The position numbers and the translations under genes are program-made. Shown piece after piece: positions 5,540 to 24,861 of a stretch of DNA of 27,880 bases (positions within the stretch are counted from its first letter, which is position 1; each line of letters starts with the position of its first letter). The stretch covers positions 1 through 27,880 of the IMG/VR virus record IMGVR_UViG_3300008050_000229; one strand, given 5' to 3'. The notes under the pieces are model-generated. The model ran no database searches and was not told the origin of the DNA. It worked only from the letters and a program-made list of their open reading frames with translations. Origin of the DNA: a virus.

Positions 5540-5550
5540 AAAAAATAACG

Positions 5551-5564
5551 ACGCCGCTCGGCGT
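5551..5564. other. Small GC-rich hairpin between genes 21 and 22
   Basis: ACGCC and GGCGT form a 5-bp stem with a GCTC loop (or 6 bp with a 2-base loop) in the 55-base gap. An A8 run precedes it, so a T-run follows on the minus strand, while on the plus strand AAATCTAAATA follows. It sits five bases before a promoter-like box. It may stabilise or separate transcripts; strength as a terminator is doubtful. Confidence 0.4.
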
Positions 5565-5568
5565 AAAT

Positions 5569-5584
5569 CTAAATATAATTGAGC
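5569..5584 (+). promoter_or_regulatory. Candidate late-promoter box upstream of gene 22
   Basis: CTAAATATAATTGAGC lies 26 bases before the ATG of the scaffold gene. It keeps the CTAAATA core and the T at box position 11 shared with the other five boxes. A promoter here would boost 22 and 23, the most heavily expressed head genes, over 21. Confidence 0.5.
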
Positions 5585-5594
5585 GAAACAAATT

Positions 5595-6197
5595 ATGAAC
5601 AAAAATTCCGAAAAAATTCTTAAGGCTCTTCCGTCAGGTTTGTCGGAGGAAGGTCTTAGTGAGGTCGCTACTCTTCTAGACCAAATTGTCGAAGAGCGTG
5701 TCTCCGAAGAAGTTGCAACTATTGAAGCTAAAGTAAAAGGTTTTCTTAGAACCAAGATAGATGAACTGAAATCTGTTGCCCTGTCCGAACTAGAAGCTGA
5801 AAATGATGTAGTTGCCAACGCTCAAATGTATGAAGCGATTCGTACTGTTGTCGCAGCTGATTTACAACAAGGCGACGAGAACGGTATTGTATCCCATTTA
5901 GAGACCGAGGTTTCACAACTTAAAGAATCTCTAAACACAGTGAATGGCAAACTTGCTAAGTCATTGAAAAATAACTCACTGCTGGAGAATCAAGCTTCTA
6001 GCAGGGAAACCCAAATCAGCGAGCTTTCAAGTTTACTTGAAGAGGAGAAAAACAAAATAGAAACTCCTTTTAAGTCTTCAGAGTCCGCTGTTGTAATAAC
6101 CAACGAGAAGCAGAACCTAATTCCAAATAGACCCGACAACGGTTTTCTCACGGAAGATGTAATTCGACTTTCCAAACCTCTACAGGAGTATAAATAA
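5595..6197 (+). CDS. 22: Prohead scaffold core protein (T4 gp22-like)
   Basis: 200 residues, almost all predicted helix and coiled coil, acidic, with no Cys. T4 gp22 is the main component of the inner scaffold around which gp23 assembles; it is later degraded by gp21. The identification rests on position between 21 and 23, size (T4 gp22 is about 269 residues, so this one is shorter) and the all-helical acidic character. Heptad-like segments are clear around residues 20-70 (DQIVEERVSEEVATIEAKV) and 100-150 (HLETEVSQLKESLNTVNGKL). The C-terminal peptide, with ...GFLTEDVIRLSKPLQEYK, is conserved-looking and may bind the shell. It ends two bases before the gp23 start. Confidence 0.85.
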   Translation: MNKNSEKILKALPSGLSEEGLSEVATLLDQIVEERVSEEVATIEAKVKGFLRTKIDELKSVALSELEAENDVVANAQMYEAIRTVVAADLQQGDENGIVSHLETEVSQLKESLNTVNGKLAKSLKNNSLLENQASSRETQISELSSLLEEEKNKIETPFKSSESAVVITNEKQNLIPNRPDNGFLTEDVIRLSKPLQEYK

Positions 6198-6199
6198 TT

Positions 6200-7819: not shown

Positions 7820-7841
7820 TCCTAATCTTTAGATTAATTAT

Positions 7842-7870
7842 AAGAACCTTGCTCTTTGAGCAAGGTTCTT
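7842..7870 (+). terminator. Intrinsic terminator after the capsid gene
   Basis: AAGAACCTTGCTC and GAGCAAGGTTCTT form a perfect 13-bp stem with a TTT loop; the stem ends in TTCTTT. It lies 22 bases after the gp23 stop. A terminator straight after the capsid gene, as in T4, would confine high transcription to the head module and protect the 3' end of its message. Confidence 0.88.
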
Positions 7871-7872
7871 TG

Positions 7873-7888
7873 CTATATAAGATGAGGA
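7873..7888 (+). promoter_or_regulatory. Candidate late-promoter box upstream of the neck module
   Basis: CTATATAAGATGAGGA starts two bases after the gp23 terminator and 23 bases before the ATG at 7896. The terminator-then-promoter order marks a transcription unit border. GAGG also serves as the ribosome site. Confidence 0.5.
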
Positions 7889-7895
7889 CAAACAA

Positions 7896-8144
7896 ATGTA
7901 CCAATATCGAAACACCCAAGAAAGAACAACTTATCGGATAACTTTATCCAATGGAGCACAAGTGACCATTGCAGCAGGTCAAGTCGTATCTTTAGAAGAG
8001 CGGTTAAATCCTGTTCCGGGCTTTTTAGAAGACCTGAATGCCATTGAAGAGAAGCCGAAGAAAGAAGCTTCTAAAAAGAAGTCCGCTAAAAAGTCTAAAA
8101 AGGTAACTAAAGATGAAGCAACGGACGGTAAAACCACAAACTAG
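7896..8144 (+). CDS. Small protein with beta-like N-terminus and Lys-rich tail
   Basis: 82 residues. Residues 1-37 look like a short beta domain (YRNTQERTTYRITLSNGAQ...AGQVVSLEE) and the last ~30 residues are Lys/Glu-rich and probably disordered. The N-terminal pattern resembles that of the 61-residue protein at 11514 (M-x-Y-x-x, then hydrophobic strands and an A-G/K-x-V/I-V turn), so the two may be paralogues, but the similarity is short. It sits first in the neck gene block and overlaps the next gene by 32 bases. Probably a minor virion or assembly protein; function unknown. GAGG gives a good ribosome site. Confidence 0.6.
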   Translation: MYQYRNTQERTTYRITLSNGAQVTIAAGQVVSLEERLNPVPGFLEDLNAIEEKPKKEASKKKSAKKSKKVTKDEATDGKTTN

Positions 8145-8991
8145 ATTCGGAAGCACTTTCGGAGATACTATAGGATTTCAAGCCCAGTTATCTGCATTTG
8201 ACTACTATGGCGAGATAGATTATAATAATCTTTGTCGTCGAAGGTTTTCTAATGAGACCCACTACTCCGAATTCTACCAACAAATCAAAGACCAGATAAG
8301 GTCTAGGTTAGGTCATCCTATTGTTAGAGTAGAGTTAGATGATTTTCAACTACAGACTGCAATCGATGAAGCAATATCTAAACTAGACTACCATGCTCCC
8401 GATTGGTGTACTCAATACTGTTCATTTGCCACGGTAGCCAATATTGGTTTATACGAACTTCCTAGTGTTGTGATTAATAACCTACGTTCAGCTTACTACT
8501 TAAAAACATTACTTTCTATTCAACGTCAAAGCGGTACTTTAGAATTTGATTTCTTTCTAAAATACTTTCAAGATAATTTCTTGTTTAGTGATTTCAGCGT
8601 AGGTGATTATTATGTTTTAGTATCTCATTTAGAGATGATGAGAAAAGTACTGGGAAGAGACGGGTCTTTTAATGTTGTAAATAATAAATACCTTTCTATA
8701 ACCCCCACTCCGACAACTAATACTGAAGGAGAAGTTTTAATTGAGTTTAAAGCTTTGGATTCGGACAGACTGCATCCTTACTTTTTAACGTGGTTGCATA
8801 AATACTCAACGGCTATTGCTAAAGGCATTCTTGGTCAGATTAGAGGTAAATACGCTCAACTTCCATCTCCCGCAGGTGGCGCCGTGTTGAACGGGGATGC
8901 TTTAATCGAACAAAGCGAGAAGGAGCAAGAAAGGCTGGTTGAGGACCTACTTCACGAGATTGAAGAACCTCCCGTATTCAGCACCTTCTAA
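8113..8991 (+). CDS. 13: Putative neck protein (gp13-like)
   Basis: 292 residues (T4 gp13 has 309). The region YQQIKDQIRSRLGHP...VELDDFQLQTAIDEAI (about 57-95) looks like the helical part of head-completion/neck proteins, and FDFFLKYFQDNFLF lies further on. In T4 gp13 and gp14 close the portal after packaging and accept the tail. The assignment relies mainly on order: the next two genes fit gp14 and gp15, followed later by 18 and 19. The start at 8113 lies 32 bases inside the preceding gene in another frame with AAGG upstream; no later Met gives a full-length product. The C-terminus is acidic. The stop overlaps the next start (TAATG). Confidence 0.65.
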   Translation: MKQRTVKPQTRFGSTFGDTIGFQAQLSAFDYYGEIDYNNLCRRRFSNETHYSEFYQQIKDQIRSRLGHPIVRVELDDFQLQTAIDEAISKLDYHAPDWCTQYCSFATVANIGLYELPSVVINNLRSAYYLKTLLSIQRQSGTLEFDFFLKYFQDNFLFSDFSVGDYYVLVSHLEMMRKVLGRDGSFNVVNNKYLSITPTPTTNTEGEVLIEFKALDSDRLHPYFLTWLHKYSTAIAKGILGQIRGKYAQLPSPAGGAVLNGDALIEQSEKEQERLVEDLLHEIEEPPVFSTF

Positions 8992-9542
8992 TGACCAGAA
9001 AGAAACAATTTAAAACTAATAACGAGATTACCTCTCCACCGGACACGGATGGAGTTTTGAACTTGTTTGATTTAAATAATCCTGATATAGAATTATTTAA
9101 TATGGTTGATGATGAGTTGATTAAGGTTGCAGGCTCCCAGATTTATTTATATAAATTTCTAGGATTGGAAGGAAGTGATGACCTGTACCAAGAAGATACT
9201 ATGAAAAGTATCTCACAAGAACCTTCTGTTGTATGGGGTCATTACGAACCTCGTCCTATAGATGAGAATATAACCGAGTTTGGTATTGTCATGGAGAATG
9301 ACCAAACTTTTACTTTCAATAAATCATATGTACAGAAAGTTTTAGGTCGTCCTATTATTGCGGGTGATATATTAAGTCCTAAATTTCAAAATTTAAAATA
9401 CGAAGTGTATGAAGTTCAGGAAGATGCTTTTGATGTATACGGCGTGTATCATTTGCTTTGCTGGGCGAAAGTCCTCCGCGATGATGAGGTTATTACTCAA
9501 GAGGACGATGAGTTTACTTCAGAGTTCGATACTACTAAATAA
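8991..9542 (+). CDS. 14: Putative neck protein (gp14-like)
   Basis: 183 residues. The stretch from about residue 80 to 165 contains WGHYEPRPIDENITEFG, NDQTFTFNKSYV, LGRPIIAGDI and YEVYEVQEDAFDVYGVYHL. I associate this pattern with gp14-type neck proteins of T4-like phages. It is shorter than T4 gp14 (256), mainly because the N-terminal part is small; the N- and C-terminal ends are acidic and poorly structured. In T4, gp14 binds gp13 at the head-tail junction. The gene overlaps its upstream neighbour by one base and is five bases from the next gene. Family call from remembered patterns and position. Confidence 0.68.
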   Translation: MTRKKQFKTNNEITSPPDTDGVLNLFDLNNPDIELFNMVDDELIKVAGSQIYLYKFLGLEGSDDLYQEDTMKSISQEPSVVWGHYEPRPIDENITEFGIVMENDQTFTFNKSYVQKVLGRPIIAGDILSPKFQNLKYEVYEVQEDAFDVYGVYHLLCWAKVLRDDEVITQEDDEFTSEFDTTK

Positions 9543-9547
9543 TTATT

Positions 9548-10228
9548 ATGGACTGGACTATAGATTCAATACGAGAAAAACTTATGCGCTTGGAGAGAGA
9601 AGGTTCTTTCCAAAAGCCAGAGTTCTATAGACAGTTCACGAAAAATCTGACTGAGGTTTTGAAAGATTTTCATGTGGTGAAATCAGATGATTCTATTCGT
9701 ACAGTAGGTGTTGTATTCGCAAGTCCTGAAAGAGCTATAGCAAAATTTAAAGATAGCGTAACAACAGAGCTTCCTTTAATTTCTGTAGGATTTAATGGTA
9801 TTGAAGTAGATTTCCAAAGACGTAGACCTTCATTTAACATCGTGCAAAGTAAGGCATGGGATAAAGAGAAGAGGTGTGCAATTAGAGTCTATGCCTTAGC
9901 TCCCGTAGCCGCTGATTTAAAATATAGTATCAATATATGGTCTAAGTATATCGAAGATATGAACCAAATCACTGAACAGTTAATGTTAAAATTTAATCCG
10001 AGTGTTGCGGTAAACACTTCCTTTGGTGATGATTTTGAAATTTTTATTGAAGATGTATCAGATATGTCAGACCTAACACCTGGAGACAAACAAGATAGAG
10101 TTATTAGAAGAAGCGTTAAAGTAACTGCGAAGGGTTATATTCCAAGTAGAACTTACCGCTTCACTAACACAGGACAGATTGAAGAGTTCCTAATGGAGGC
10201 TGAGGTTAAGACTGATGTTACCGGTTAA
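9548..10228 (+). CDS. 15: Putative tail sheath stabiliser/completion protein (gp15-like)
   Basis: 226 residues (T4 gp15 has 272). The central region PLISVGFNGIEVDFQRRRPSF (about 79-100), followed by LKYSINIWSKYIEDMNQITEQL (about 132-155) and FNPSVAVNT, matches the layout of gp15-type tail terminators: strand, conserved YxIxxWxKYxEDMxQIxEQ helix, then a beta region. In T4, gp15 caps the tail and joins it to the neck. Order 13-14-15 supports this. An alternative is the related tail-tube terminator gp3. The 3' end overlaps the next gene's first possible start by 14 bases. Confidence 0.65.
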   Translation: MDWTIDSIREKLMRLEREGSFQKPEFYRQFTKNLTEVLKDFHVVKSDDSIRTVGVVFASPERAIAKFKDSVTTELPLISVGFNGIEVDFQRRRPSFNIVQSKAWDKEKRCAIRVYALAPVAADLKYSINIWSKYIEDMNQITEQLMLKFNPSVAVNTSFGDDFEIFIEDVSDMSDLTPGDKQDRVIRRSVKVTAKGYIPSRTYRFTNTGQIEEFLMEAEVKTDVTG

Positions 10229-11423
10229 GCAGTGTCGACTTAGGGTTATGCTTGAGGGTAACATGTTTATACTATCAGGGACCCCATATGGGCTGGGCAA
10301 AAAGCTTACAATAGGAATAGAGGGGTCCTTAGGGTGGAAGTGTCAGTGTGAGCCGCCGAAGACCGCTTGCGTGGAAGAACTTCCTGTTTTGGGCAATAAG
10401 TATTCGAAGTCTGCCATTTTATGGGAGACCTGTCTAGAACGTGGTCCCTGTAAGGACTCACACTCCACGCGAGATAATGATTGTGTTGCGAAAGGTCATG
10501 CTCCGGTTTATGTAGTGGTGACGGTAATCTATTACGACACCCCGACTGGTTACGGCGAATTCCTCGCACAACTGGCGCTTGAGCTTGAGAACCTGGTTAA
10601 AGAAAATGCTAACCGACTTAACTGTGGTCTAGGAGAGATTTCTAATACGTCAGACGAGGCAATGGAAGGGGCTAGGTTCTTGATTGCGGACAACCAAAAA
10701 CTGTCGTTGGGTAGTCCGTCGCCTCCCCGTCTTAAGCAAAGAATCCCTCAATCACCCCCAAACCAGGACGTCACAGAAGTTTATTCCTCCAGAGGAGGAA
10801 GTTTGAACCAAGAGCAAGAGGCGGAGGAGCCGCCGTGCGATACCTTAGTTCACTTCGAGAATGTGAGAGTAGACCCTTCTGGAGTTATGTTTTACCCAGA
10901 GCGCGCATGGCAAGGATACGCAGGGGTGGAAGTGACAGTGGACGTAGTCGCTGAATGTAAAATGGTTGATTGCGAAACTACTTGCACTACGTCTACGCCA
11001 ATCATCAAGGACTTTAAAACAGGATTCGTCATAAAGTCCGACAACTTCCCACCAAACTTCTGGAGTGACCTAAAAAAACATGGCTTCAGCGGCAGCGGCG
11101 CCAGCGTTAGTTTAGAGGAGCTTGCAGATGAGGGTTTTGTAGATGATGGAGGTGTTTCTGAGCCAGGAAACGCTTACACCTGGTTTGCTCCAGTAACAGA
11201 CGCGATAGATTTCGGAGTTGGTCATGGAACTATGGGTCCGTGGGGTGACCTGGCACTGGGCAAAGAAGCTGTACGCCCTAAGGGTAAAAAATCCATCCCC
11301 ATGGATGACTGGGCACGGGACCCGGAATGGAAATACTTGTGGGACTATCTTACGGGAGGTGTTAAGGAGTGTACCTGTACGAGGCACGTCTCTCACTCGG
11401 CGCATATCTCTAAGAGCTCATAG
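10215..11423 (+). CDS. Cysteine-rich protein of unknown function, compositionally distinct
   Basis: 402 residues from the ATG at 10215 (GAGG nine bases upstream). A later Met at 10263 with GAGGG four bases upstream is also possible, giving 386 residues and removing the overlap with the gp15-like gene. About 16 Cys occur in clusters: CQC...C near residues 43-52, three around 73-90, five around 247-257, and CTC near the C-terminus. This suggests metal binding or disulphides. The middle (about 175-205) is Pro/Ser/Gln-rich and probably a linker. Spot counts give 47-60 % G+C in this gene (lines at 10321, 10921, 11281) against 23-45 % just upstream. In T4 this position, between 15 and 18, holds terminase genes 16 and 17, but no Walker or nuclease motif is visible here. 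Function unknown; transfer from elsewhere is plausible. Confidence 0.7.
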   Translation: MLPVKQCRLRVMLEGNMFILSGTPYGLGKKLTIGIEGSLGWKCQCEPPKTACVEELPVLGNKYSKSAILWETCLERGPCKDSHSTRDNDCVAKGHAPVYVVVTVIYYDTPTGYGEFLAQLALELENLVKENANRLNCGLGEISNTSDEAMEGARFLIADNQKLSLGSPSPPRLKQRIPQSPPNQDVTEVYSSRGGSLNQEQEAEEPPCDTLVHFENVRVDPSGVMFYPERAWQGYAGVEVTVDVVAECKMVDCETTCTTSTPIIKDFKTGFVIKSDNFPPNFWSDLKKHGFSGSGASVSLEELADEGFVDDGGVSEPGNAYTWFAPVTDAIDFGVGHGTMGPWGDLALGKEAVRPKGKKSIPMDDWARDPEWKYLWDYLTGGVKECTCTRHVSHSAHISKSS

Positions 11424-11488
11424 AAGACCTAATAATGAAGGACTGTTAAATCACAGTAAAAAGTTTCCATCTTTCCTTATCGACATTA

Positions 11489-11504
11489 GTAAATACAATA
11501 GGGA
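11489..11504 (+). promoter_or_regulatory. Candidate late-promoter box upstream of the tail sheath block
   Basis: GTAAATACAATAGGGA lies 25 bases before the ATG at 11514 in a 90-base intergenic gap, the longest one before gene 18. It differs from the common box only by G at the first position. It would drive the 61-residue gene and gp18. An ACTGT-N6-ACAGT inverted repeat is found 31 bases upstream (11442-11457). Confidence 0.5.
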
Positions 11505-11513
11505 AAGATATTC

Positions 11514-11699
11514 ATGAAATATAAGCAAATTAAAAATAATACACGCCAAGGTCTTGAAGTAGTTCTTAAAAGACCAACTGGCGGGTTCAAACATGTTTGG
11601 CTTGCCGCCAAATCCTCTATCATCGTGTCTGAAGCTGAAGTTACCGATTTGGCAGAACGAGCCGCTCGGCGCGAATTAGTGAGTATCACCCCCGCTTAA
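11514..11699 (+). CDS. Small protein preceding the tail sheath
   Basis: 61 residues, basic, with a short beta-rich N-terminal half (LEVVLKRPTGGFKHVWLAA) and a helical C-terminal part. AGGGAAAG lies just upstream of the ATG and it is separated from gp18 by 13 bases, so it is likely co-translated with the sheath. It resembles the 82-residue protein at 7896 in its N-terminal pattern. Function unknown; probably a minor virion or assembly factor. Confidence 0.6.
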   Translation: MKYKQIKNNTRQGLEVVLKRPTGGFKHVWLAAKSSIIVSEAEVTDLAERAARRELVSITPA

Positions 11700-11712
11700 G
11701 GAGAATATATAA

Positions 11713-13968
11713 ATGGCAACATACGTAAGTCCCGGCGTCTATGTGACTGAAAAAGATTGGTCAGATTACACGCCTTCTTTAAACGCTACTACCGTAGGTG
11801 TAGTAGGTTTCGCATCTCAAGGTCCCGTTGGAGTTCCAACGCTATGCACTACTCAAGACCAATTACTTAACACTTTCGGTGACCCTTCTGACGCAACAGG
11901 GGGCTACGGTCTATTAGGCTCGTACCATATTTTGGAACGTACTAACACATTGTACTTCACCAGAGCTGCATTAGATTCAGCGGTTAGAGCCCAAACTGAG
12001 ATTATTGTGGGCGGGTCTCCTTACGTTGCCGTTGCTAATTTAAGTCCAGAATGGTCGTACTTGCTTGCGGTTACTGTATGGGATGGAGCTGGTAATGCTA
12101 AGACAGCTGACGCCCCTCTTTGGATTCAAATAGAGCCTGCAAGTTCAATAGCTAGTCTATCTGTAGCAGATTCCACTGCAGAAGCTCTAGCTGACGCAGC
12201 CGCTGCAGTTACAAACTCTACATCCCCTTACTCAATTGAGGAAGGTTCAAGTACTTCGAGCATTGATGTAATCGGCACTTACTCAGGTAAAGGCGCAAAA
12301 CTAGGATTCGTCTTATACGAATCAAGTGGTACATTCCCTAGTATTCCCGCAGGTACTACTCTTGCAGGACTATCGGCTTATTCAGGTACAAACGCTCTTC
12401 TAAGTGCTGTGGACGGAGGTACGGACACGTCCGCCGGTGCGACAACCCAGTGCACTGGCAGCAATGGCTTGGGCACCAGTGTGACGGCAAACTTCGTCGG
12501 TTATACTTCAGGGTACGATTTCGCTTCCTCCGGAGTATCCGGAGGCTCATACTTCCATAGAAGTTTATACCCAGGAGAGGGTTACAACTACTCAAGTATG
12601 GTAACTCAGTACGGTGTTAAAAACACAGGTCTTCAAATCTCGGTAGCTTCGGTACAAGGAGCTAATCAAGGATGGACTTTATTAAGAAATGGAGGTATCG
12701 AAGAGACTTTCACTGTAAACCTTATAGATAACTTAAATGCAAGCGCTAATGGACTTAACCCCGAAAGATTTGTAAATAGTACTACGGATGAGACCAATAA
12801 GACTTCGAACTATATCTTAGCTGAATTTGGGGTAGCTACTAGTTCAGTGGGAGCGTCTCCAAACTCTCCTTTATGGACTCTCCCTACATCATGGGGCGGT
12901 TCTGTAACTCAAGACGGTACTACCAAGATAAGGGTTCAAGCTAACAATGATAGTTATGCTGACCTAGATGCTAGTAGTGTAGATTATATAAAGCTGAAGG
13001 ACGGTACTTATAATCTAGTATCCGGCATAAACGGAGATATGGCAGGAGGCAAGGCATTTGATGACGCTGATGTTAAAGCTGCTGTTATGGGTACGGCAGA
13101 GAATCAAGCTGGAATTCAAAGTTTCTTAAAAGAAGATATCGATGTTAATATGGTAGCAATTCCGGGATGCACTGACCAGTCAATCGTAAATGATTTACTA
13201 ACTAATGCAGAAACCTCTCAAAAATTCTTAGCTGTCACTAACCCTCCTCAAAGTTTAGGAAGCGCGCAAGATGCAATTAGATGGTCAAACGGAAAGGCTT
13301 CTGGTAGAACTGCTTCGTTAAACACCTCTTATGGCGCAGTATATTGGCCTTGGGTAAAACTGTATAATCCTTTCTCTTTACAAGATGAGTATGTATCCCC
13401 TGATATTTTTGCGATACGACAAATGTGTTACACTGATACAGTAGGCGAACCTTGGTTTGCTCCTGCAGGTCTTACTAGAGGTAGGTTGACACGTCCTGTA
13501 GATGTTGAAATGGTGTTATCCCAGGGAGATAGAGACGCTCTATACGGTCCTGGTAATATTATCAACCCTATCACTAAGTTTTCCACTGATGGAATCGTGA
13601 TTTGGGGACAACGTACCGCTCAAAGGTCGGCTACTGCTCTTGATAGAGTGAATGTCCGCCGCTTAATGATTCTTGTAAGAAAAACTATTCTAGCTTCTAC
13701 TAGAAGGTTTGTTTTCGAGCCTAATGACCCTGCTACTTGGACTAGGGTAGTTAATTCTGTTTCACCTTTCATGTCAGATATCCAAAACAGACGAGGTATT
13801 ACTAAGTTTAAGGTTATTTGTGATGAGTCCACTAACACTCCTCTTCGGATTGACCGAAATGAGTTATGGTGTAAAGTGATTCTTCAACCTACTAAAGCAG
13901 CGGAAATTCTCGTGTTTGAATTGAACCTGACAAGTGCTTCACTAGGACTTAACGTTCCAAGCGCATAA
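11713..13968 (+). CDS. 18: Tail sheath protein (T4 gp18 family)
   Basis: 751 residues (T4 gp18 has 659). The N-terminus MATYVSPGVYVTEKDWS is the standard sheath opening, followed by VGVVGFASQGPVGVPTLCTT. The conserved C-terminal part begins near residue 570 with ...ALDRVNVRRLMILVRKTI and includes FEPNDPATWTRV and LRIDRNELWCKVILQPTKAAEILVFELNL at the end. The middle (about 150-480) is Ser/Thr/Gly-rich and variable, as expected for domains on the outside of the contractile tail; it accounts for the extra length. AAGGAG ten bases upstream of the ATG is a good ribosome site. Forms the contractile tail tube cover that drives injection. Confidence 0.95.
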   Translation: MATYVSPGVYVTEKDWSDYTPSLNATTVGVVGFASQGPVGVPTLCTTQDQLLNTFGDPSDATGGYGLLGSYHILERTNTLYFTRAALDSAVRAQTEIIVGGSPYVAVANLSPEWSYLLAVTVWDGAGNAKTADAPLWIQIEPASSIASLSVADSTAEALADAAAAVTNSTSPYSIEEGSSTSSIDVIGTYSGKGAKLGFVLYESSGTFPSIPAGTTLAGLSAYSGTNALLSAVDGGTDTSAGATTQCTGSNGLGTSVTANFVGYTSGYDFASSGVSGGSYFHRSLYPGEGYNYSSMVTQYGVKNTGLQISVASVQGANQGWTLLRNGGIEETFTVNLIDNLNASANGLNPERFVNSTTDETNKTSNYILAEFGVATSSVGASPNSPLWTLPTSWGGSVTQDGTTKIRVQANNDSYADLDASSVDYIKLKDGTYNLVSGINGDMAGGKAFDDADVKAAVMGTAENQAGIQSFLKEDIDVNMVAIPGCTDQSIVNDLLTNAETSQKFLAVTNPPQSLGSAQDAIRWSNGKASGRTASLNTSYGAVYWPWVKLYNPFSLQDEYVSPDIFAIRQMCYTDTVGEPWFAPAGLTRGRLTRPVDVEMVLSQGDRDALYGPGNIINPITKFSTDGIVIWGQRTAQRSATALDRVNVRRLMILVRKTILASTRRFVFEPNDPATWTRVVNSVSPFMSDIQNRRGITKFKVICDESTNTPLRIDRNELWCKVILQPTKAAEILVFELNLTSASLGLNVPSA

Positions 13969-13970
13969 TG

Positions 13971-13986
13971 CTATATACAATAGGAG
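13971..13986 (+). promoter_or_regulatory. Candidate late-promoter box upstream of the tail tube gene
   Basis: CTATATACAATAGGAG lies 22 bases before the ATG of gene 19 and starts two bases after the sheath stop. AGGAG (13983-13987) overlaps its end and is also the ribosome site. Separate control of the tube gene would allow more tube than sheath message. Confidence 0.5.
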
Positions 13987-13992
13987 TAAAAC

Positions 13993-14640
13993 ATGGCTGA
14001 TATATCTTTAGATTCTTTTTATAACGACGTTCCACGAGCTGTCGATATTGCTGTTACGGATGGTGCTAAACTATTCCATCAGTATGATTCATACCGTGCT
14101 TATAGCTGGCTTATCCGCATTAACGGAATAGGCGGCGCTACGGGCTCGATTTTAAACAATATAGGTCTTAGTGACCCTGATAACATGCTAACCCTTGCGG
14201 CTAAGCAGGTAGGTCAGATTGGATACAACGTAGATGATATTATGGTTGACCGCGTTAACGATAAGTTCTACTACCCAGGTCGTCCTTCTATGGAAGAGAC
14301 TGTTGTAACTTTTGATAACTTACTTAAAGGCGATGTGGCAAAGGCTTTATTTGATTGGATGAGAACTACCTATGACCCTATTCAAGGTGTTCACTCCTAT
14401 AGTATTGTTGGCGGTTCTACTAATAAGAGAACCGTAGATGTTATTCAACTAGACCACCAACGTCAGCCAAAGATGGTAGCGCGTTTATATGGATGCTATC
14501 CAAAGAACTGGAGACTAGCTGAGTTTAATTACTCTGCTAACGACTTCCATTCTATCGAAGTTTCTTTACGTTACGATGTTGTAGGCTATTTCCGAGTTGG
14601 CGACAGCGCATTTGAAGATATTGTAGCGCCTGTATCATAA
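13993..14640 (+). CDS. 19: Tail tube protein (T4 gp19 family)
   Basis: 215 residues (T4 gp19 has 163). Family features are YRAYSWLIRINGIGG near the start, MLTLAAKQVGQIGYNVDDIMVDRVNDKFYYPGRP (about residues 70-100), VVTFDNLL, and the C-terminal NDFHSIEVSLRYDVVGYF. It has the beta-barrel fold that stacks into the inner tube through which DNA leaves the head. It follows gp18 directly, as in T4, and is followed by a strong terminator. The start is set by AGGAG six bases upstream. The extra ~50 residues are spread over loops. Confidence 0.95.
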   Translation: MADISLDSFYNDVPRAVDIAVTDGAKLFHQYDSYRAYSWLIRINGIGGATGSILNNIGLSDPDNMLTLAAKQVGQIGYNVDDIMVDRVNDKFYYPGRPSMEETVVTFDNLLKGDVAKALFDWMRTTYDPIQGVHSYSIVGGSTNKRTVDVIQLDHQRQPKMVARLYGCYPKNWRLAEFNYSANDFHSIEVSLRYDVVGYFRVGDSAFEDIVAPVS

Positions 14641-18026: not shown

Positions 18027-18345
18027 TAGAGACGAGAAGGTTTTGAACCACCTACTCAAGAATAAAAAGAAAAAGGCATTTACCTTATTATATTATTCGG
18101 AGTGGTGTGACCGTTCTGCTAGAATCGTAGAGGTGTTGAACGAGTGGAAACTTAAGGAGTCTGACAAAGATGAGGACGTATACCTAATCTCCAGTTGGGA
18201 ACTTCCTCATGCATTTGCAGCCTTTGCTATTAATAGCGCACCTTCCATAGTAAAAGTTAACCGAGGAAGGGTTTCAGTTATGATAGAGTACCCTAAAGTA
18301 CATTCCTATTTTTCTGCACCTACGCCCGCCCCTTCCAAGGGGTAG
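18001..18345 (+). CDS. Thioredoxin-like protein with a single active-site Cys
   Basis: 114 residues from ATG 18001, preceded by GGAGGAG six bases upstream; an in-frame ATG at 17968 has no such site. The fold signature is FTLLYYSEWCDRSARIVEVL (27-46: strand, W-C, helix), an alternating beta-alpha centre, and INSAPSIVKVNRGR (77-90) with the cis-Pro81 of thioredoxins. The active site reads WCDRS, so the resolving Cys of CxxC is replaced by Ser40-Ala region residues and only Cys36 remains. That rules out ordinary disulphide reduction and suggests a monothiol, peroxiredoxin-like or purely structural role, for example as a polymerase partner as host thioredoxin is for T7. Overlaps gp55 tail to tail by 26 bases. 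Confidence 0.68.
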   Translation: MRTVTKLTSRDEKVLNHLLKNKKKKAFTLLYYSEWCDRSARIVEVLNEWKLKESDKDEDVYLISSWELPHAFAAFAINSAPSIVKVNRGRVSVMIEYPKVHSYFSAPTPAPSKG

Positions 18346-18685
18346 AACTATTTACGATTTCTTGGTAATCATGAATTTTTTGCATGTACTTTTTGTTTTT
18401 CGTGTACATTAACTTCAGATTGTTTACTATAACAGTAGTGAAGTAGTTGAACGCTGAACCTTTAGACCCTTTGAAATTCTTTAAAGTTTTGAACGCAAGC
18501 ATGAAACACTCTTGTTTCGCATCATCAAAATCTACCTTGAATTTAAAAGAGAGCAAAATGTTTGTAATTAGAATATCTAATTTTTCCACTAAATCGTTTT
18601 CGTGGTCTTTGGAGGGGTCTTCCAAGTATTTGGAAATAACCCCTTCGAATTCCTTATTATTTAAATAATGTTTCTTTGGACTCAT
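18320..18685 (-). CDS. 55: Late-transcription sigma factor (T4 gp55-like)
   Basis: 121 residues on the minus strand, shorter than T4 gp55 (185). The N-terminus MSPKKHYLNNKEFEGVISKY has the typical K-x-H-Y-x-N-N-K opening of phage gp55 proteins. DFDDAKQECFMLAFKTLKNF (51-71) is followed by KGSAFNYFTTVIVNNLKLMYTKNKK, which corresponds to sigma-70 region 2: the helix that binds core polymerase and the aromatic-rich FNYFT segment that recognises and melts the -10 element. Region 4 is absent, as in gp55, which needs gp33 and the sliding clamp instead. It would direct RNA polymerase to the CTA(A/T)ATA boxes found before the virion genes. It starts 15 bases from a divergent gene. Confidence 0.82.
   Translation of the reverse strand: MSPKKHYLNNKEFEGVISKYLEDPSKDHENDLVEKLDILITNILLSFKFKVDFDDAKQECFMLAFKTLKNFKGSKGSAFNYFTTVIVNNLKLMYTKNKKYMQKIHDYQEIVNSSTPWKGRA
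18329..18342. terminator. Weak candidate bidirectional terminator at convergent gene ends
   Basis: CCCCTT and AAGGGG form a 6-bp stem with a 2-base loop (or 5 bp with a TCCA loop) inside the 26-base overlap of the thioredoxin-like and gp55 genes. A convergent border is where a terminator is expected, but there is no proper T-run on either side. Confidence 0.3.
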
Positions 18686-18700: not shown

Positions 18701-19672
18701 ATGAACTTAGACAAATTAATCAATAGTTTTGAAAAAACTGAAAATTTTTACCGAGAAGAACTCAGTGATGAGAAAATTCTTTTCATTCATGATAGTTGCG
18801 TAATGCAACGTGGGCAGGTATATGAATTCTCTGATAATGAGTATTCAATGCTAAAATCTTTACTGGACAAGAGTGATATTCCAGACAACTCATATCAGTT
18901 TGCTGCTGCGATTAAAGAGGTAGGTCTCACAGAAGACGAGGCTACCACGGCAGACTTACACGCAAATAGACCTCTTATAGAAGAGGATATTAAAACCATT
19001 GACCCGGACCTAATTTTTGTTTTAGGTAATCTGGCGATGAAAACCGTTTTGAAAAAATCCGGTTTGGGAAATAAAAGAGGTAAGGAATACCATCTTGAGA
19101 TAGACGGCAAGGACTATCCTGTCGTTCCGGTGTACCACCCTTTTTCCCTATACTCTGAACCTAGCACAAGAGGTCTTTTCGTACAAGATATTAATAACGC
19201 GTACGGAAAGTTCATACTTAATAATAACAAACTCGCTAATTCTTCTTACGAGCTTTGTAAGACTGTGAAACAAGCGGTCGATTGCATAACAGAAGCGTTA
19301 AAAAGAGACGTTATTGCAGTAGACTTAGAAACTACAGGTCTTGATTATAAAAAGGATAAGATTACAACCTTTGGAGTTGCCACTGATGAAGGAGAGGCTT
19401 TCGTAATACCTTTTTACCATAGGGAGTCACCTTTTACTGAAGACGAACTAGATGATATTAAAAAGTACGTCCGATTACTAATGGCTGGTAATGTTAATAA
19501 AGTATTTCATAACTGTAAGTTTGATTTAAAATTTCTTCGTAATTGGGGGGTAGACATGTTTGCTAATATCGATGATACTCAAATGATGCATTCGTTAGTA
19601 GATGAGAATATGCCTCATGGATTGATGGATTTAGTTAAGGAATATTTTCCCAAAGAACTTGAGAAGTTTTAG
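18701..19672 (+). CDS. Family A DNA polymerase, N-terminal part: UDG-like domain plus partial 3'-5' exonuclease domain
   Basis: 323 residues. Residues ~25-175 resemble family 4/5 uracil-DNA glycosylases: DPDLIFVLGNLAMKTVL (101-117), a G-K-x-Y-x-L strand, and VVPVYHPFSLY (141-151) with the His-Pro of the catalytic loop. The Cys ligands of the iron-sulphur cluster and the usual N-terminal GExPG-type catalytic motif are not seen, so repair activity is doubtful. Residues ~200-323 are a DnaQ-like proofreading exonuclease: exo I DLETTG (Asp208, Glu210) and exo II HNCKFD (His270, Asp275). The protein stops after ...LVKEYFPKELEKF, before exo III, which is encoded in the gene at 20714. No ribosome site is visible. 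The exonuclease can only be complete if the two products associate. Separate exonuclease and polymerase genes are known from Rhodothermus phage RM378. Confidence 0.92.
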   Translation: MNLDKLINSFEKTENFYREELSDEKILFIHDSCVMQRGQVYEFSDNEYSMLKSLLDKSDIPDNSYQFAAAIKEVGLTEDEATTADLHANRPLIEEDIKTIDPDLIFVLGNLAMKTVLKKSGLGNKRGKEYHLEIDGKDYPVVPVYHPFSLYSEPSTRGLFVQDINNAYGKFILNNNKLANSSYELCKTVKQAVDCITEALKRDVIAVDLETTGLDYKKDKITTFGVATDEGEAFVIPFYHRESPFTEDELDDIKKYVRLLMAGNVNKVFHNCKFDLKFLRNWGVDMFANIDDTQMMHSLVDENMPHGLMDLVKEYFPKELEKF

Positions 19673-19674
19673 AC

Positions 19675-19680
19675 TATAAT
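19675..19680 (+). promoter_or_regulatory. Candidate -10 element before the glutamine synthetase gene
   Basis: TATAAT lies six bases before the ATG at 19687, between the exonuclease and synthetase genes. The only -35-like hexamer, TTGAGA at 19659-19664, is 10 bases away, too close for sigma-70. There is no ribosome site for this start either, so a nearly leaderless message is one possible reading. Confidence 0.3.
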
Positions 19681-19686
19681 AAGACT

Positions 19687-20691
19687 ATGGACAAAATTAA
19701 AGCAGAGTATGTTTGGTTAGACGGTAGAGAGTCCCCAATGCCTCATCTTAGAAGTAAAATTAGGGTATTAGAGGCTCCTAAGAAAGGCAAACTAATTCCC
19801 CCTCAATGGAACTTTGACGGAGGAAGTACTTATCAAGCCGACTTAGAGGATTCTGATACTATACTTTCACCCGTGCGTGTATACGCTAATCCGTTTTTAG
19901 AAGACGGGGTGTTAGTTCTTTGTGAGGTCTTTAACCAAGATGGAACAACGCATGTCTCTAACACTAGAAGAGAGCTTGAGTCCTTGCAAGGGAAAGATGC
20001 AGAAATGTGGTTTGGTTTTGAGCAGGAGTATACTTTATTCTTAGATGAAAATACACCTTTAGCGTGGTATAACGGGGAACCCGAACAACAAGGAGACTAT
20101 TACTGTGGAGTTGGAACTGAGAATGCTTTTGGCAGAGATATCTCAAATACCCATTTAGACATGTGTTTGAAGGCGGGTATAGATTTATACGGTACTAATG
20201 CAGAGGTTATGCCTTCTCAATGGGAGTATCAGACCAGTCCTACTGCATCCCTTAAAGCTGCGGATGACCTTTGGATGTCTCGCTACATCTTAGAACGTGT
20301 TACAGAAAAAGCAGGAGTTTTTAATTCTTTCCACCCAAAGCCGTGTAAGGGTGAGTGGAACGGAGCTGGATGCCATACTAATTTTTCTACTAAATGGATG
20401 AGGAGTGATTATCATTACGTTGTCGAAGCAATAAACCGTTTAGAGGGTAGGCATAGTAGCCACCTGGAGGTGTACGGTGCTTGGAATAGTCAGAGAATGA
20501 CAGGTAACTGTGAAACATCCTCTTACGATACTTTTACCGCAGGTAAAACAGACAGAAGTGCTAGTATTAGAATCCCACTAGCTACGACTAAAGATGGAGG
20601 GTATTTAGAGGATAGAAGACCTTCCGCTAATATGGACCCTTATAGAGTTTGCGCTAGGCTGATAAAGTCGGTGTGTTTAGACCAAGATTAA
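19687..20691 (+). CDS. glnII: Glutamine synthetase, type II (eukaryotic-like GSII)
   Basis: 334 residues, near the usual GSII length (~340-370), with the C-terminal tail slightly short. It makes glutamine from glutamate, ammonia and ATP. Motifs in order: WNFDGGSTYQA (41-51), WFGFEQEYTLF (108-118; Glu112, Glu114), GTNAEVMPSQWEYQ (169-182; Glu173, Glu180), GAGCHTNFST (226-235; His230), WNSQRMTGNCET (266-277; Arg270, Glu276), DRSASIRIP (289-297; Arg290, Arg295) and YLEDRRPSANMDPYR (306-320; Glu308, Arg310). Metal, ATP and glutamate ligands are all kept; only the usual His of the RHET motif is Cys275. An active enzyme is therefore likely. GSII is typical of eukaryotes and some bacteria and differs from the common bacterial GSI. 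It fills the gap between the two parts of a split DNA polymerase, with 14 and 22 bases to spare. Start chosen at 19687 because the N-terminal AEYVWLDG strand follows directly. Confidence 0.96.
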   Translation: MDKIKAEYVWLDGRESPMPHLRSKIRVLEAPKKGKLIPPQWNFDGGSTYQADLEDSDTILSPVRVYANPFLEDGVLVLCEVFNQDGTTHVSNTRRELESLQGKDAEMWFGFEQEYTLFLDENTPLAWYNGEPEQQGDYYCGVGTENAFGRDISNTHLDMCLKAGIDLYGTNAEVMPSQWEYQTSPTASLKAADDLWMSRYILERVTEKAGVFNSFHPKPCKGEWNGAGCHTNFSTKWMRSDYHYVVEAINRLEGRHSSHLEVYGAWNSQRMTGNCETSSYDTFTAGKTDRSASIRIPLATTKDGGYLEDRRPSANMDPYRVCARLIKSVCLDQD

Positions 20692-20702
20692 CTATTATAT
20701 CT

Positions 20703-20710
20703 AAGGAGGT
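20703..20710 (+). promoter_or_regulatory. Strong ribosome binding site of the polymerase gene
   Basis: AAGGAGGT, a near-perfect anti-16S match, lies three bases before the ATG at 20714. It is the strongest Shine-Dalgarno in the replication region and contrasts with the absence of one before the exonuclease part and the synthetase. It makes 20714 the clear start, and suggests the polymerase half is made in excess of the exonuclease half. Confidence 0.85.
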
Positions 20711-20713
20711 ACA

Positions 20714-22240
20714 ATGCTTACAGTAACAAACGGAAAGTCCCAAGATTGGGAAAATATGCCATTAGATGATTTAGCGTTTGGCAACGCTATGGACTGCGAT
20801 TTTACATTACGGTCCTATCATATATTAAGAAAGGAAATGAAAAAAACTAAGGTTAACTTAGTTTATGATAACTTACTTAAAGATATTTTGGTTATTCTAG
20901 GTCTTGTAGAAAACACAGGTATTAAGGTAGATTCCGAGTATTTAAAAACTTTGGACGTAGCTTTGCAGAAAGAGGTCAAAAGACTAGAGGAGACTATTGA
21001 GAAATTATCTCCCGTTGACGACATCAACCCTCGCTCTACCCAGCAAATGGCGGAGGTCCTATTTACTTCTGACGGGTTCGATTTAACTCCTCAAGAGTTT
21101 TCAGCTAAAACTAAAATACCTAAGATTTCAGAAGCGCATTTAAGCAAAGTTCTTGAGGATGGTCTAGATAAAAATGCTAAAGAGTTCATCGAAAGCTTGC
21201 TTAAGTACAAGTATCGTGTAAAGCAACACAGGACGTACGTAAAGGGCGTACAAGACGCGTTAGAGTATAATGAGGATGGTAGAATCTATTCTAATTATAA
21301 CTTTGCTACGGTCGTTACAGGGCGTCTCAGCTGTTCTGCCTCTGACGCGGGAAAAGGCAAGCGTAAAGGGGTATCTTTCCATACTCTACCTAGAGAAGAT
21401 GAAGAAGGGGGAGATATTAATATCAGGAATCTTATGCAATCCGATAACGAAACCAAAGCTTTCCTTGCTGCCGACTTTTCCCAAGCTGAACTTAGAGTAC
21501 TAGCTCAGTGCTGTAAAGATGAAAATCTTATAAAGGCTTTTACGGAAGGTGAGGATTTACATAAGTTTACCGCGAGCCTTGTATTCGGCAAGTCCATTGA
21601 AGAAGTAACCAAGCAAGAACGCCAAATTGCTAAAAGTGTATCCTTTCTTATTGTGTACGGAGGAGGTCCCTTTAAGTTAGCGGAACAGGTTGGAAAATCT
21701 GTTGGATACTGTAAAAATATATTTAAATCTTATCAAGATGCCTTCCCTAAAGTATTCTCATGGATTCAACAAGTTCATAAATTTATTAGAGCAAACGGAT
21801 ACGCTGTAAGTTTGTTTGGTCGTCGTAGACATCTACCAAATGTTAATAGTCCAATTAAAAAGTATCAGTACCGTGCTTTGAGACAAGGGATGAATTTTGT
21901 AATTCAAAGTTCTGCATCTGACCTCATGCTACATTCTATAAAAAGATTGCATAAGTATAACGAGGCTTTAGGACTAGGTATGGATATTTTAGCCACCGTA
22001 CACGACTCAGTTGAAGTTCAATGTGACCTAGATAAGGTTGAAAAGTGTACAGAAACTTTGAAATACGTTTTATCTACGACAGAGGATTTTAAAGATATGT
22101 ACAATATAGACTTTGTAGTCCCGTTTGAAGTGGACATAGAAGCTGGGACTTCCTTTGGGAATCTCACTGATGCAGAGTTTGGTGCCAATGGACACCTCCT
22201 TAATGCCAAAGAAATTAAAGAATTTATCACACATGTGTAG
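20714..22240 (+). CDS. polA: Family A DNA polymerase, C-terminal part: exo III motif and polymerase domain
   Basis: 508 residues. The first 45 residues finish the proofreading domain: NAMDCDFTLR (24-33) carries the exo III Asp27. In the usual order Tyr stands four residues before this Asp; here it is Gly, with Phe one position earlier. Residues ~50-500 form the palm, fingers and thumb: VTGRLSC (201-207), motif A LAADFSQAELR (251-261, Asp254), motif B R303-x3-K307-x3-F311-x3-Y315-G316 of the O helix, and motif C ATVHDS (427-432, His430, Asp431). Phe311 corresponds to E. coli Pol I Phe762. All catalytic polymerase residues are present, so this is the likely replicative enzyme; T4 itself uses family B. 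It is in the same frame as the exonuclease gene upstream and overlaps gene 47 by eight bases. Confidence 0.96.
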   Translation: MLTVTNGKSQDWENMPLDDLAFGNAMDCDFTLRSYHILRKEMKKTKVNLVYDNLLKDILVILGLVENTGIKVDSEYLKTLDVALQKEVKRLEETIEKLSPVDDINPRSTQQMAEVLFTSDGFDLTPQEFSAKTKIPKISEAHLSKVLEDGLDKNAKEFIESLLKYKYRVKQHRTYVKGVQDALEYNEDGRIYSNYNFATVVTGRLSCSASDAGKGKRKGVSFHTLPREDEEGGDINIRNLMQSDNETKAFLAADFSQAELRVLAQCCKDENLIKAFTEGEDLHKFTASLVFGKSIEEVTKQERQIAKSVSFLIVYGGGPFKLAEQVGKSVGYCKNIFKSYQDAFPKVFSWIQQVHKFIRANGYAVSLFGRRRHLPNVNSPIKKYQYRALRQGMNFVIQSSASDLMLHSIKRLHKYNEALGLGMDILATVHDSVEVQCDLDKVEKCTETLKYVLSTTEDFKDMYNIDFVVPFEVDIEAGTSFGNLTDAEFGANGHLLNAKEIKEFITHV

Positions 22241-23246
22241 AGCCGTTATACTTACAGACCTACACCTCCGCTCAGATTATATTCCAGGGTACTTAGATAA
22301 GCAGGTAGACACCTTAACCAAAATGGTTAACAGAAAACCAGCCGATGTTGTTGTTATTAATGGGGATATATTTCATAGAAGAAATCCCAAAGGTGCAGAG
22401 CTTCTTGCGTTTAGAAAATTACTTCTTAGTTTTAAAACAAAAGAAATTTTAATTAATAGAGGTAACCATGATACCATTACAAAAGATGGAGGTACTCGAA
22501 CAACTCTTTCTTTATTTTCCGATATAGCAACTATATTTACCGAAACAACAACTCATCGCATAGGTTCTGTTGATTTTGATTTTATTCCTCATTACGAGGA
22601 TGAATCTAGGATTATTAAAGATTTAAAAGCGAGTGAAAATCATGTGTTTGGTCATTGGGGGTTTGATGGTTGTGTCGCTAATGGCAATTATAAATATGAA
22701 TCTTACGTCAAACGTAGTCATATAGGAAAAAAAAGACTATGTTTTTTAGGACATATACATAAGCCAAAGCAATATGGGAAAAATATTTTTGTACTCGGAA
22801 CGCAATACTCGACTACTTTCGGCGAGGCTAATGCCCAAAAATTCGGACACGAGTTGCTGGTCAGAGATGGAGTGGTGGAAGTGGTACGTATCCCTATTGA
22901 TTACGGGATTCGTCATATCACCGCTACGCTGGACACGCTTGAAGAAGCCAATAAGAAGTATAAGTTCTCGGATTTTTTCACCATTCTACGTCTTAAGCTT
23001 GACACGCTGGACGCATCGGTTGAGAATCAGCTGCAGGAAGAGATTTCGAAAAAATACGATATAAATCATTTGGAGATATCGTTTGAGGATATAATGCAGA
23101 AGTATGATTCAGAATATGATTGTATTGAGCCCGTAATTGCATTAGATGATACTATTATAGGAGAGTACATCGATTCTAGTGATACCGTATTCTCTAAAAC
23201 AGAACTTATGGACACATTAAACGAAATAAGAACTCATGAAAATTAA
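22233..23246 (+). CDS. 47: Recombination nuclease subunit (T4 gp47 / SbcD / Mre11 family)
   Basis: 337 residues from the ATG at 22233, chosen because the conserved first strand MCRAVILTDLHLRSD begins there; the frame is open further upstream inside the polymerase gene but adds unrelated residues. It is a calcineurin-like phosphoesterase with DLH (9-11), NGDIFHRR (43-50, Asp45), RGNHD (76-80), GHWGFDG and GHIHKPK, all metal-binding motifs intact. With gp46 it forms the complex that resects DNA ends for recombination-dependent replication. The gene overlaps polA by 8 bases and gene 46 by 11 bases, so the three are translationally linked. Confidence 0.95.
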   Translation: MCRAVILTDLHLRSDYIPGYLDKQVDTLTKMVNRKPADVVVINGDIFHRRNPKGAELLAFRKLLLSFKTKEILINRGNHDTITKDGGTRTTLSLFSDIATIFTETTTHRIGSVDFDFIPHYEDESRIIKDLKASENHVFGHWGFDGCVANGNYKYESYVKRSHIGKKRLCFLGHIHKPKQYGKNIFVLGTQYSTTFGEANAQKFGHELLVRDGVVEVVRIPIDYGIRHITATLDTLEEANKKYKFSDFFTILRLKLDTLDASVENQLQEEISKKYDINHLEISFEDIMQKYDSEYDCIEPVIALDDTIIGEYIDSSDTVFSKTELMDTLNEIRTHEN

Positions 23247-24861
23247 CAATATCGTTATTGAAAACTTTTTATCTATGGAGAATGTTTCCATAGATTTTGA
23301 GCAATTTTCTGAGCTTGTTTTAGTAGAGGGAAGAAATAAAGATACCAAGCCTATAAGCTCTAATGGGGCTGGCAAGAGTTCCGTAATAGAAGCTTTAGTT
23401 TTTGCACTATTTGGAAAAACAATAAGAAAGACTACTGAGAAAAGTTTAACAAATCTTCACACTGGCGGTAAGTGCAAAGTTACATTAACTGTTAATGATA
23501 ATGTGGTTATTGAAAGGACTAAAAAACCTTCAAAGCTAGTTGTTAGAGTGGGAGATAAAAACGAAACTAGGGATAATGTTATGGCTACTCAAAAATACCT
23601 AGAAAGAACGTTAAATATTAACCCTCAGGTATTTCTCGCATCTATTGTATTCGGTCAAGGCATAAAGACGGATTTTCTAACAGCAACCGCCGACGAAAAA
23701 AGAGCAATCATCCAGAACTTCTTAAACATCTCTGACTTGTTTGAAATGAGAAGTAAGATAAGGTCTTTAAAATCCCGCGCCTTAAACGCAAAGAAAGTCG
23801 CTTCAACATTAAACGATGAAGCCTTTGCTCGTTCCGACAAACTTAAAGGTAAGTTAAAAAAACTGAGAACCGCCAAGAAAGAGTTTACGACTATCTTTTC
23901 TTCAGAAAAAGCCGAGTTTATAAATAAGTATTCTATTTCAGAAATACAAGAAAAGGAACGCTTATACCATGATTTAGATGTAACATATGAATCAGTCGCG
24001 CACCAACTAAGTAAAACACGGGCAGATATAAAATCTTCTTTATCAAGAATAGAGAGATATAAAGGAGGTGCCTGTGAGCATTGCTCTAAAGTATCTTTAG
24101 AAATTTGGAAAATGATAAAAGAAGATGAGCAAAATGTTGTAGATAAAAATTCTACACTGTTAGACTTAAAGAAATCACTTAAGGAGTTAAAGGTACAGCT
24201 AGATGAGAATTATATTCCAATAACTGTAGCTGATTTTGAACTTATTGAAGAAGCGAAGACTATAGATGTAAAAATATCTAATCTCGATAGCCAGATTAGA
24301 GAACACAGACGCATTAAGAAAAAGCATTTAGATGAAGTTACAGTCGCTCAAAAAAGATACGATATATTAAAGTTTTGGGAGGTAGCGTTTTCTGAACAAG
24401 GACTAGTTAAATATATTATTAGAAATATATTAACATTCTTCAATGACCGCGCGAATTACTATATGAACTTCCTTACAGCAGGAAACTTTACTATAGATTT
24501 TGATGAGTTTTTAGAAGAAACTGTATATCTTAAAAATGGAAAAGTTTACTATACCTCCTTGTCGGGAGGAGAAAAAAAGAAAGTATCTCTTAGTGTTATG
24601 TTGGCACTGAACGACCTTTTATTGTTATCAGGAAAAGACCGCTCTAACATCATTTTCTTTGATGAGATAGCGGACTCTTTAGACGAAGAAGGTATTAAGG
24701 GTTTGCACGAACTGATAAAAGAAGTTACAAACTCTAAGACTATGTTTATTATTACACATAATGATTACTTAGTAGGTCTTATAGAGGATTGGGCTGAGCA
24801 CCTTATAGTGGAAAAGACTAAAGGAATAACAACCGTAAAAACAAAAAATGCCAATTTATAG
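23236..24861 (+). CDS. 46: Recombination ATPase subunit (T4 gp46 / SbcC / Rad50 family)
   Basis: 541 residues (T4 gp46 has 560). The SMC-like layout is complete: Walker A SNGAGKSS (42-49, Lys47), Q-loop region around VFGQGIKTDFL (138-148), coiled coil out to the zinc hook CEHC (280-283), return coiled coil, signature LSGGEKKKVSLS (442-453), Walker B IIFFDEIADSLD (472-483) and the switch His508 in IITHND. The coiled coils are short, as in phage members. It partners gp47 in end resection. The start overlaps gene 47 by 11 bases; the 3' end overlaps the zinc-ribbon gene by 14. Confidence 0.95.
   Translation: MKINNIVIENFLSMENVSIDFEQFSELVLVEGRNKDTKPISSNGAGKSSVIEALVFALFGKTIRKTTEKSLTNLHTGGKCKVTLTVNDNVVIERTKKPSKLVVRVGDKNETRDNVMATQKYLERTLNINPQVFLASIVFGQGIKTDFLTATADEKRAIIQNFLNISDLFEMRSKIRSLKSRALNAKKVASTLNDEAFARSDKLKGKLKKLRTAKKEFTTIFSSEKAEFINKYSISEIQEKERLYHDLDVTYESVAHQLSKTRADIKSSLSRIERYKGGACEHCSKVSLEIWKMIKEDEQNVVDKNSTLLDLKKSLKELKVQLDENYIPITVADFELIEEAKTIDVKISNLDSQIREHRRIKKKHLDEVTVAQKRYDILKFWEVAFSEQGLVKYIIRNILTFFNDRANYYMNFLTAGNFTIDFDEFLEETVYLKNGKVYYTSLSGGEKKKVSLSVMLALNDLLLLSGKDRSNIIFFDEIADSLDEEGIKGLHELIKEVTNSKTMFIITHNDYLVGLIEDWAEHLIVEKTKGITTVKTKNANL

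Follow-up and report, generated by a model that had tools for sequence, protein, structure and literature searches.

Split family A DNA polymerase genes in T4-like phages, with a junction that holds exchangeable metabolic genes

When a phage polymerase gene is broken, the break is generally taken to be a scar left by an intron, an intein or a homing endonuclease. The DNA studied here leads to a different reading. A family A DNA polymerase gene is cut at one residue throughout a clade of viral sequences, between the exo II and exo III motifs of its exonuclease domain, and the resulting junction is either empty or filled with accessory genes, the commonest of which encodes a type II glutamine synthetase. 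We consider it probable that an enzyme with a UDG fold, an exonuclease and a polymerase (UDG-exo-pol) underwent an ancestral fission, that the junction later became an exchangeable cargo slot and that the two proteins together rebuild one polymerase.

The window, that is the whole stretch of DNA analysed, is a viral record of 27,880 bases from IMG/VR. Matches to T4-type families identify structural genes for a head maturation protease, a major head protein, a tail sheath and a tail tube; the major head protein shares about 31% identity with its counterpart in cyanophage S-CAM4. These T4-type head and tail genes (4931-14640) are paired with a family A polymerase (20714-22240), not with the usual family B replicative polymerase. 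Three ORFs on the same strand occupy 18701-22240, as stated in the preliminary description; their products are here named EXO (323 aa), GS (334 aa) and POL (508 aa). The features of the locus are as follows.

18320-18685, minus strand: sigma-70 region 2-like protein, a conserved neighbour, syntenic in relatives (PF04542, E 9e-5, below the Pfam cut-off)
18701-19672, plus strand: EXO subunit, an N-terminal family-4/UdgX-like UDG fold and the first three quarters of a 3'-5' exonuclease domain (PF03167, PF01612, AlphaFold, PRK05755)
19322-19339, plus strand: exo I, DLETTG (D208, E210), invariant in the 49-sequence alignment A3
19508-19534, plus strand: exo II, HNCKFDLKF (D275), with H270, F274 and D275 invariant in A3
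19673-20713, plus strand: cargo slot separating the polymerase genes, 1041 nt in the window, with boundaries common to all relatives and a content from nothing to 3.7 kb
19687-20691, plus strand: glnII, type II glutamine synthetase of 334 aa, the present cargo (NCBIfam GlnII model, yeast GS match, selection)
20703-20709, plus strand: AAGGAGG, Shine-Dalgarno-like, ahead of the POL start (sequence)
20714-22240, plus strand: POL subunit of 508 aa, with the exo III segment (end of the exonuclease domain), thumb, palm and fingers (PF00476, AlphaFold)
20777-20800, plus strand: exo III segment FGNAMDCD, in which D27 corresponds to Klenow D501 and G23 stands at the Tyr497 position (profile alignment to Klenow, clade motif tally)
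22155-24861, plus strand: SbcD-like phosphoesterase and SbcC-like ATPase, conserved neighbours, syntenic in relatives (PF00149, phrog_77)

The synteny around the split polymerase is constant among relatives. The weakly matching sigma-70 region 2-like protein beside EXO is possibly a late sigma factor. In the most divergent relative, L097 (5940-7841), inspection of the sequence alone places a ribonucleotide-reductase-like ORF downstream of the SbcCD-like genes. A chimeric assembly of the window junction, against which the preliminary description had advised a check, is ruled out by two other, independent IMG/VR metagenome contigs that are identical over 19600-20760 (0 mismatches in 1161 nt). 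Neither a late-promoter-like CTATAATA in the gap nor the scan for sigma-70 promoters and terminators exceeded chance.

POL has every mark of a family A DNA polymerase. It matches DNA_pol_A (PF00476) with an E of 1e-82 and carries the family motifs A (D..qAElR), B (R...K...F..YG) and C (HDS) as DFSQAELR, RQIAKSVSFLIVYGG and VHDSVE, which are invariant or nearly so. Its AlphaFold model (pLDDT 89) has a Klenow-like fold, residues 1-485 aligning to Klenow 470-928 with a Z of about 34-36; since the alignment starts at Klenow 470, the last part of the exonuclease domain is carried by POL. The rest belongs to EXO, in which Pfam recognises the UDG superfamily (PF03167, residues 43-155) and DNA_pol_A_exo1 (PF01612, residues 184-322). 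The latter match runs from position 2 to position 134 of a profile of 173, and EXO therefore lacks the last part of the exonuclease domain. On the DNA polymerase I profile PRK05755, EXO takes positions 286-432 and POL 443-886, and this collinear and complementary coverage makes them consecutive parts of one enzyme. The preliminary description had read the halves in just this order, with a break between exo II and exo III that leaves neither product with a complete exonuclease site, and both points hold. The candidate reading of EXO as a complete stand-alone exonuclease is ruled out by the end of its exo1 match at position 134 of 173. The His/Asp residues after exo II were also considered as an exo III of its own and rejected, being the usual segment before exo III that fused relatives have as well.

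The catalytic residues are shared out accordingly between the two proteins. Exo I (D208, E210) and exo II (D275) lie in EXO, where the preliminary description had placed them, and are invariant in the 49 EXO sequences of alignment A3; no split POL in the tally lacks the exo III Asp, which is D27 of POL and equivalent to Klenow D501. The exonuclease carboxylates are thus complete only when both proteins are counted. Set against the DEDDy pattern, exo I D/E, exo II D and the exo III Asp are present and the exo III Tyr is absent, replaced by Gly throughout the split clade and retained in the fused relatives L105 and L106. The preliminary description's placing of exo III and the whole polymerase domain in the second protein holds for D27 and DNA_pol_A, with Gly at the Tyr position. 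Because this catalytic residue is Gly, exonuclease activity may be reduced or lost, and the proofreading strength of the split enzyme is uncertain.

The N-terminal part of EXO has a UDG superfamily fold, as both PF03167 and structure alignment indicate: in the AlphaFold model, residues 11-175 align to family 4 UDG/UdgX with a Z of about 18 over 157-165 residues. A truncated exonuclease follows, the last 29 residues of which are mostly modelled with low confidence. By inspection, EXO has HDSCV in place of the family 4 UDG motif I GEAPG and HPFS for motif II HP(A/S); the fused relative L105 keeps GEAPG and HPAY. The absence of GEAPG makes UDG activity unlikely, and the domain (18701-19225) is probably a structural or DNA-binding remnant.

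The division is old and strictly conserved. Scans of viral contigs provided 63 distinct junctions, the window included, in all of which EXO and POL are separate; 12 further contigs agree, and no fused polymerase gene was found inside the split clade among about 75 distinct junctions. (L099 was left out, as its POL appears frameshifted in its contig.) The relatives' POL proteins are 47-83% identical and all are cut at the same residue, EXO ending in ...ELEKF or similar and POL starting with MLTV.... The only fused relatives found, L105 and L106, are about 28% identical. A POL profile search of genome contigs gave no confirmed relatives, and with L097 as query no nearer kin were found. The distance from EXO to POL goes from -1 nt (TAATG) up to 3,732 nt, with values such as -1, 1, 413, 450, 461, 697, 1562 and 2356. 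In the window, the halves share a frame and are 1041 bases (3 x 347) apart, as the preliminary description noted in favour of an insertion. The numbers are correct, but the gap modulo 3 varies among relatives and the shared frame is for this reason a coincidence.

A second cut is found in L091, L093, L095, L096 and L101, and in L130 and L133 where covered. There POL is encoded by two ORFs of 157 and 371 aa, which overlap by ATGA in the thumb region and include about 20 extra residues (for example L093, 6001-7586). All pieces of this three-ORF polymerase are under purifying selection, and phages of the L093 type appear to make a three-part polymerase; alternatively, a programmed frameshift across the ATGA might join the two POL ORFs. 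For EXO and POL in general, dN/dS is 0.02-0.17, and for GS 0.05-0.13, where dS was measurable. With values so low, neither the polymerase halves nor the cargo are decaying. Purifying selection on every piece, together with the exo III Asp always kept in POL, suggests that the pieces assemble in trans. The simplest reading would be an obligate heterodimer, in which EXO and POL most likely bind and rebuild one polymerase, EXO contributing D, E and D to the exonuclease site and POL the last D.

The content of the slot is variable. Among 55 tabulated junctions, GlnII is the commonest single cargo (27), followed by a small ORF of 62 aa (19), ThyX (Pfam Thy1; 7), a PDDEXK_11 nuclease (6), an 80-aa ORF and a saccharopine-dehydrogenase-like enzyme (4 each), a 76-aa ORF (3) and a nuclease-like ORF of 169 aa (2); the remaining slot ORFs are singletons. 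The genes in the gap share the polymerase strand, save two dubious ORFs on the minus strand, and they can be combined, as in L016, where the small ORF, glnII, thyX and the nuclease stand together. Slots are empty in L072, L074, L076, L078, L079, L086, L093, L097, L360, L365 and L368-L371. A comparison of the slot PD-(D/E)XK_11 nuclease with isolate phages gave no match. In a single phage, L044 (4017-5996), the slot holds an ORF of 659 aa with no match in Pfam or NCBIfam.

In the window, the preliminary description's metabolic gene between the polymerase halves is confirmed as a full-length glutamine synthetase II. Residues 4-331 of GS match the NCBIfam GlnII model NF041605 (E 1.6e-112), with a score of 375.9 bits that is under the equivalog cut-off of 500 bits, and yeast GS is matched with an E of 8e-96. 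The domain is full-length and has the GSII signature residues DGGST, GFEQEY, NGAGCHTNFST, RMTG..ET and EDRRP. The window protein is a diverged viral member of its family, and the slot glnII genes of its relatives are under purifying selection.

Phylogeny shows how mobile this cargo has been. With the fused L105 and L106 as outgroups, all split sequences form one clade of the POL tree (100/99), over which the presence of glnII changes at least 12 times and the empty or filled state at least 9 times. Within one subclade, L093 is empty, L095 has glnII and L101 the 80-aa ORF; in one metagenome, L360 is empty while L362 has glnII and another ORF. Among the nearest kin of the window, L003 has thyX in the slot and L010 the nuclease-like ORF with the small ORF. 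The glnII tree groups the window with L004 and rejects a grouping of L004, L016 and L044 (AU p 0.0015), and the EXO+POL tree rejects the window with L004 (p about 1e-44). The window glnII thus has a history different from that of its polymerase. This discordance and the turnover of the slot show that the window glnII entered an already split gene and that slot genes move horizontally between lineages. For slot glnII, three label changes were counted and a few non-slot viral sequences are nested among those of the slot, so a single origin is not clear. The slot gene of L085 (774-1825) looks recombinant, its left part being as in L068 and its right part as in L084; this is consistent with homologous recombination, and an assembly error is possible for L085.

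Empty slots are found both in the most divergent split lineages (L097, L369-371) and in close relatives (L093, L360, L365, L072 and L074). On the sequences available, the empty slot likely came first, a polarity short of proof because the deepest empty-slot lineages stand on long branches. The course of events would start with a single gene fission between exo II and exo III, in the family A replicative polymerase, of the UDG-exo-pol type, of the ancestor of a T4-like myophage clade. Two ORFs touching at TAATG would be the simplest and probably ancestral state, and the junction would then have been tolerated as an insertion slot within the operon, with whole accessory ORFs entering it, leaving it and passing from phage to phage; the simplest route would be homologous recombination in the conserved polymerase halves on either side. 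We give about even chances to a more elaborate version, in which the enzyme was broken stepwise into two and then three proteins assembling in trans and the first break became a stable recombination slot for glnII, thyX and the saccharopine-dehydrogenase-like gene, coupling the expression of cargo and replicase.

The preliminary description had proposed instead that the polymerase gene was intact until a cassette with glnII landed in it and broke it in two. The collinear halves, with almost nothing lost at the junction, and the high frequency of glnII (27 of the 55 junctions) are in keeping with such an event. It is nevertheless very improbable: every relative that lacks glnII has its cut at the same residue, empty junctions occur in deep and shallow lineages alike and would each require a precise loss of glnII down to TAATG or 1 nt, and the gene and the polymerase of the window have different histories. 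A mobile nuclease of the PD-(D/E)XK, homing-endonuclease-like kind could also have split the gene long ago, metabolic cargo replacing or joining it later. The PD-(D/E)XK_11 ORFs in the slot of six loci and the other nuclease-like ORF in two speak for this, as do similar proposals for some seg and mob insertions in T4-like phages and the seg endonuclease that accompanies gene 43, likewise split, in Aeromonas phage 25 (PMC2988022). We regard this origin as unlikely, since the deepest relatives and most slots have no nuclease, the slot nucleases are only putatively homing, and no HNH, GIY-YIG or LAGLIDADG domain occurs among the gap proteins tested against Pfam. The break in the window contains no homing endonuclease gene.

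The two remaining alternatives concern the products. Rejoining after transcription or translation, by a group I intron, a split intein or a frameshift bypass, would have parallels in the MIJ3 split intein of a phage polymerase gene (PMC6892783) and in the HMU-phage introns cited in PMC10580990. The chances of it are negligible here, given gaps of -1 or 1 nt in relatives that leave no room for an intron or intein, an EXO that ends at a stop, a POL with its own start and Shine-Dalgarno sequence, an Rfam scan of the window without any match, introns included, and a Pfam search of EXO and POL without intein families. EXO and POL might also be independent, POL as a proofreading-free polymerase and EXO as a separate DNA-binding protein. 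The lost exo III Tyr, the lost UDG motif I and the low-confidence EXO C-terminus would fit, yet EXO and POL together retain all four exonuclease carboxylates, purifying selection maintains the orphan exo III helix at the POL N-terminus and the synteny is constant, which makes independence decidedly improbable.

Several known systems resemble the one proposed here, an ancestral fission followed by use of the junction as a slot. In the T4-like Aeromonas phages 25 and 44RR2.8t, the replicative polymerase (gene 43) is encoded by two ORFs that an insert or an intercistronic spacer separates, gp43A and gp43B of phage 25 co-purify with polymerase activity, and the invasion may have come later, when the gene was already split; this polymerase, however, belongs to family B, its insert is a seg homing endonuclease or an untranslated spacer and not a metabolic gene, and neither a series of cargos nor a three-piece form is reported in the text consulted (PMC2988022). 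The OM43 phages MEP401 and MEP402 likewise have a family A PolA divided into two ORFs, with a small ORF in the gap, and most related viral genomes show this arrangement (PMC10580990; OP830906). Their cut differs in lying inside the polymerase domain, just before motif A; the first ORF has no UDG fold, the insert of 77 aa is unrelated to the gap ORFs of the window clade and the phages are classed in Zobellviridae. Rhodothermus phage RM378, cited as a precedent by the preliminary description, is a weaker parallel than stated there: it does have separate exonuclease and polymerase genes and a T4-like capsid (28.7% identity to the window major head protein), but its polymerase p092 has family B motifs, its exonuclease p024 appears complete with an exo III of its own (YNAVD) and the two genes are about 57 kb apart on one record. 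Intact UDG-exo-pol enzymes (SPO1-type, PHROG 17; PDB 9qhs; L105 and L106) have the same domain order, EXO and POL matching consecutive parts of them; they are single polypeptides, and L105 keeps the GEAPG and exo III Tyr lost in the split clade. An essential enzyme is also cut in two by an inserted gene in Aeh1 nrdA with mobE, where coupling is of the UAAUGA type, and in T4 gene 60 (PMC2988022); these are single endonuclease insertions, unlike an old and conserved slot whose metabolic cargo is exchanged.

Phage polymerases that are split and carry an insert are already known (Aeromonas gp43, MEP401); the recurrent slot for metabolic cargo and the tripartite form appear to be new. In the open-access literature, where absence is weak evidence, we found no description of a split polymerase whose conserved junction accommodates metabolic genes in the manner of a slot, and none of a family A polymerase in three ORFs. 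The same break, kept over deep divergence, often empty and refilled with metabolic genes, offers a natural experiment in how a split essential enzyme comes to serve as a docking site for cargo. The enzymes in two and three pieces mark positions at which a family A polymerase presumably tolerates a cut without losing the ability to assemble; these positions can be tested by expression and could guide the design of split-polymerase tools.

The junction also gives viral glutamine synthetase and ThyX a defined location in the genome. Purines and CTP are made with glutamine as amide donor and dTMP is made by ThyX; both enzymes plausibly help to supply nucleotides during replication. GlnII, or ThyX in sister phages, would be expressed together with the replicase and would help to provide nucleotides or nitrogen. 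Viral glutamine synthetase of the GlnII type is common outside the slot, with more than 580 confirmed stretches, of which the 80 best were checked for their neighbours, so the presence of glnII in a phage is not itself new. In the L018 contig, ThyX also occurs at a site other than the slot. Among 21 longer contigs examined, eight bear glnII, and in each of them the one copy found lies at the slot.
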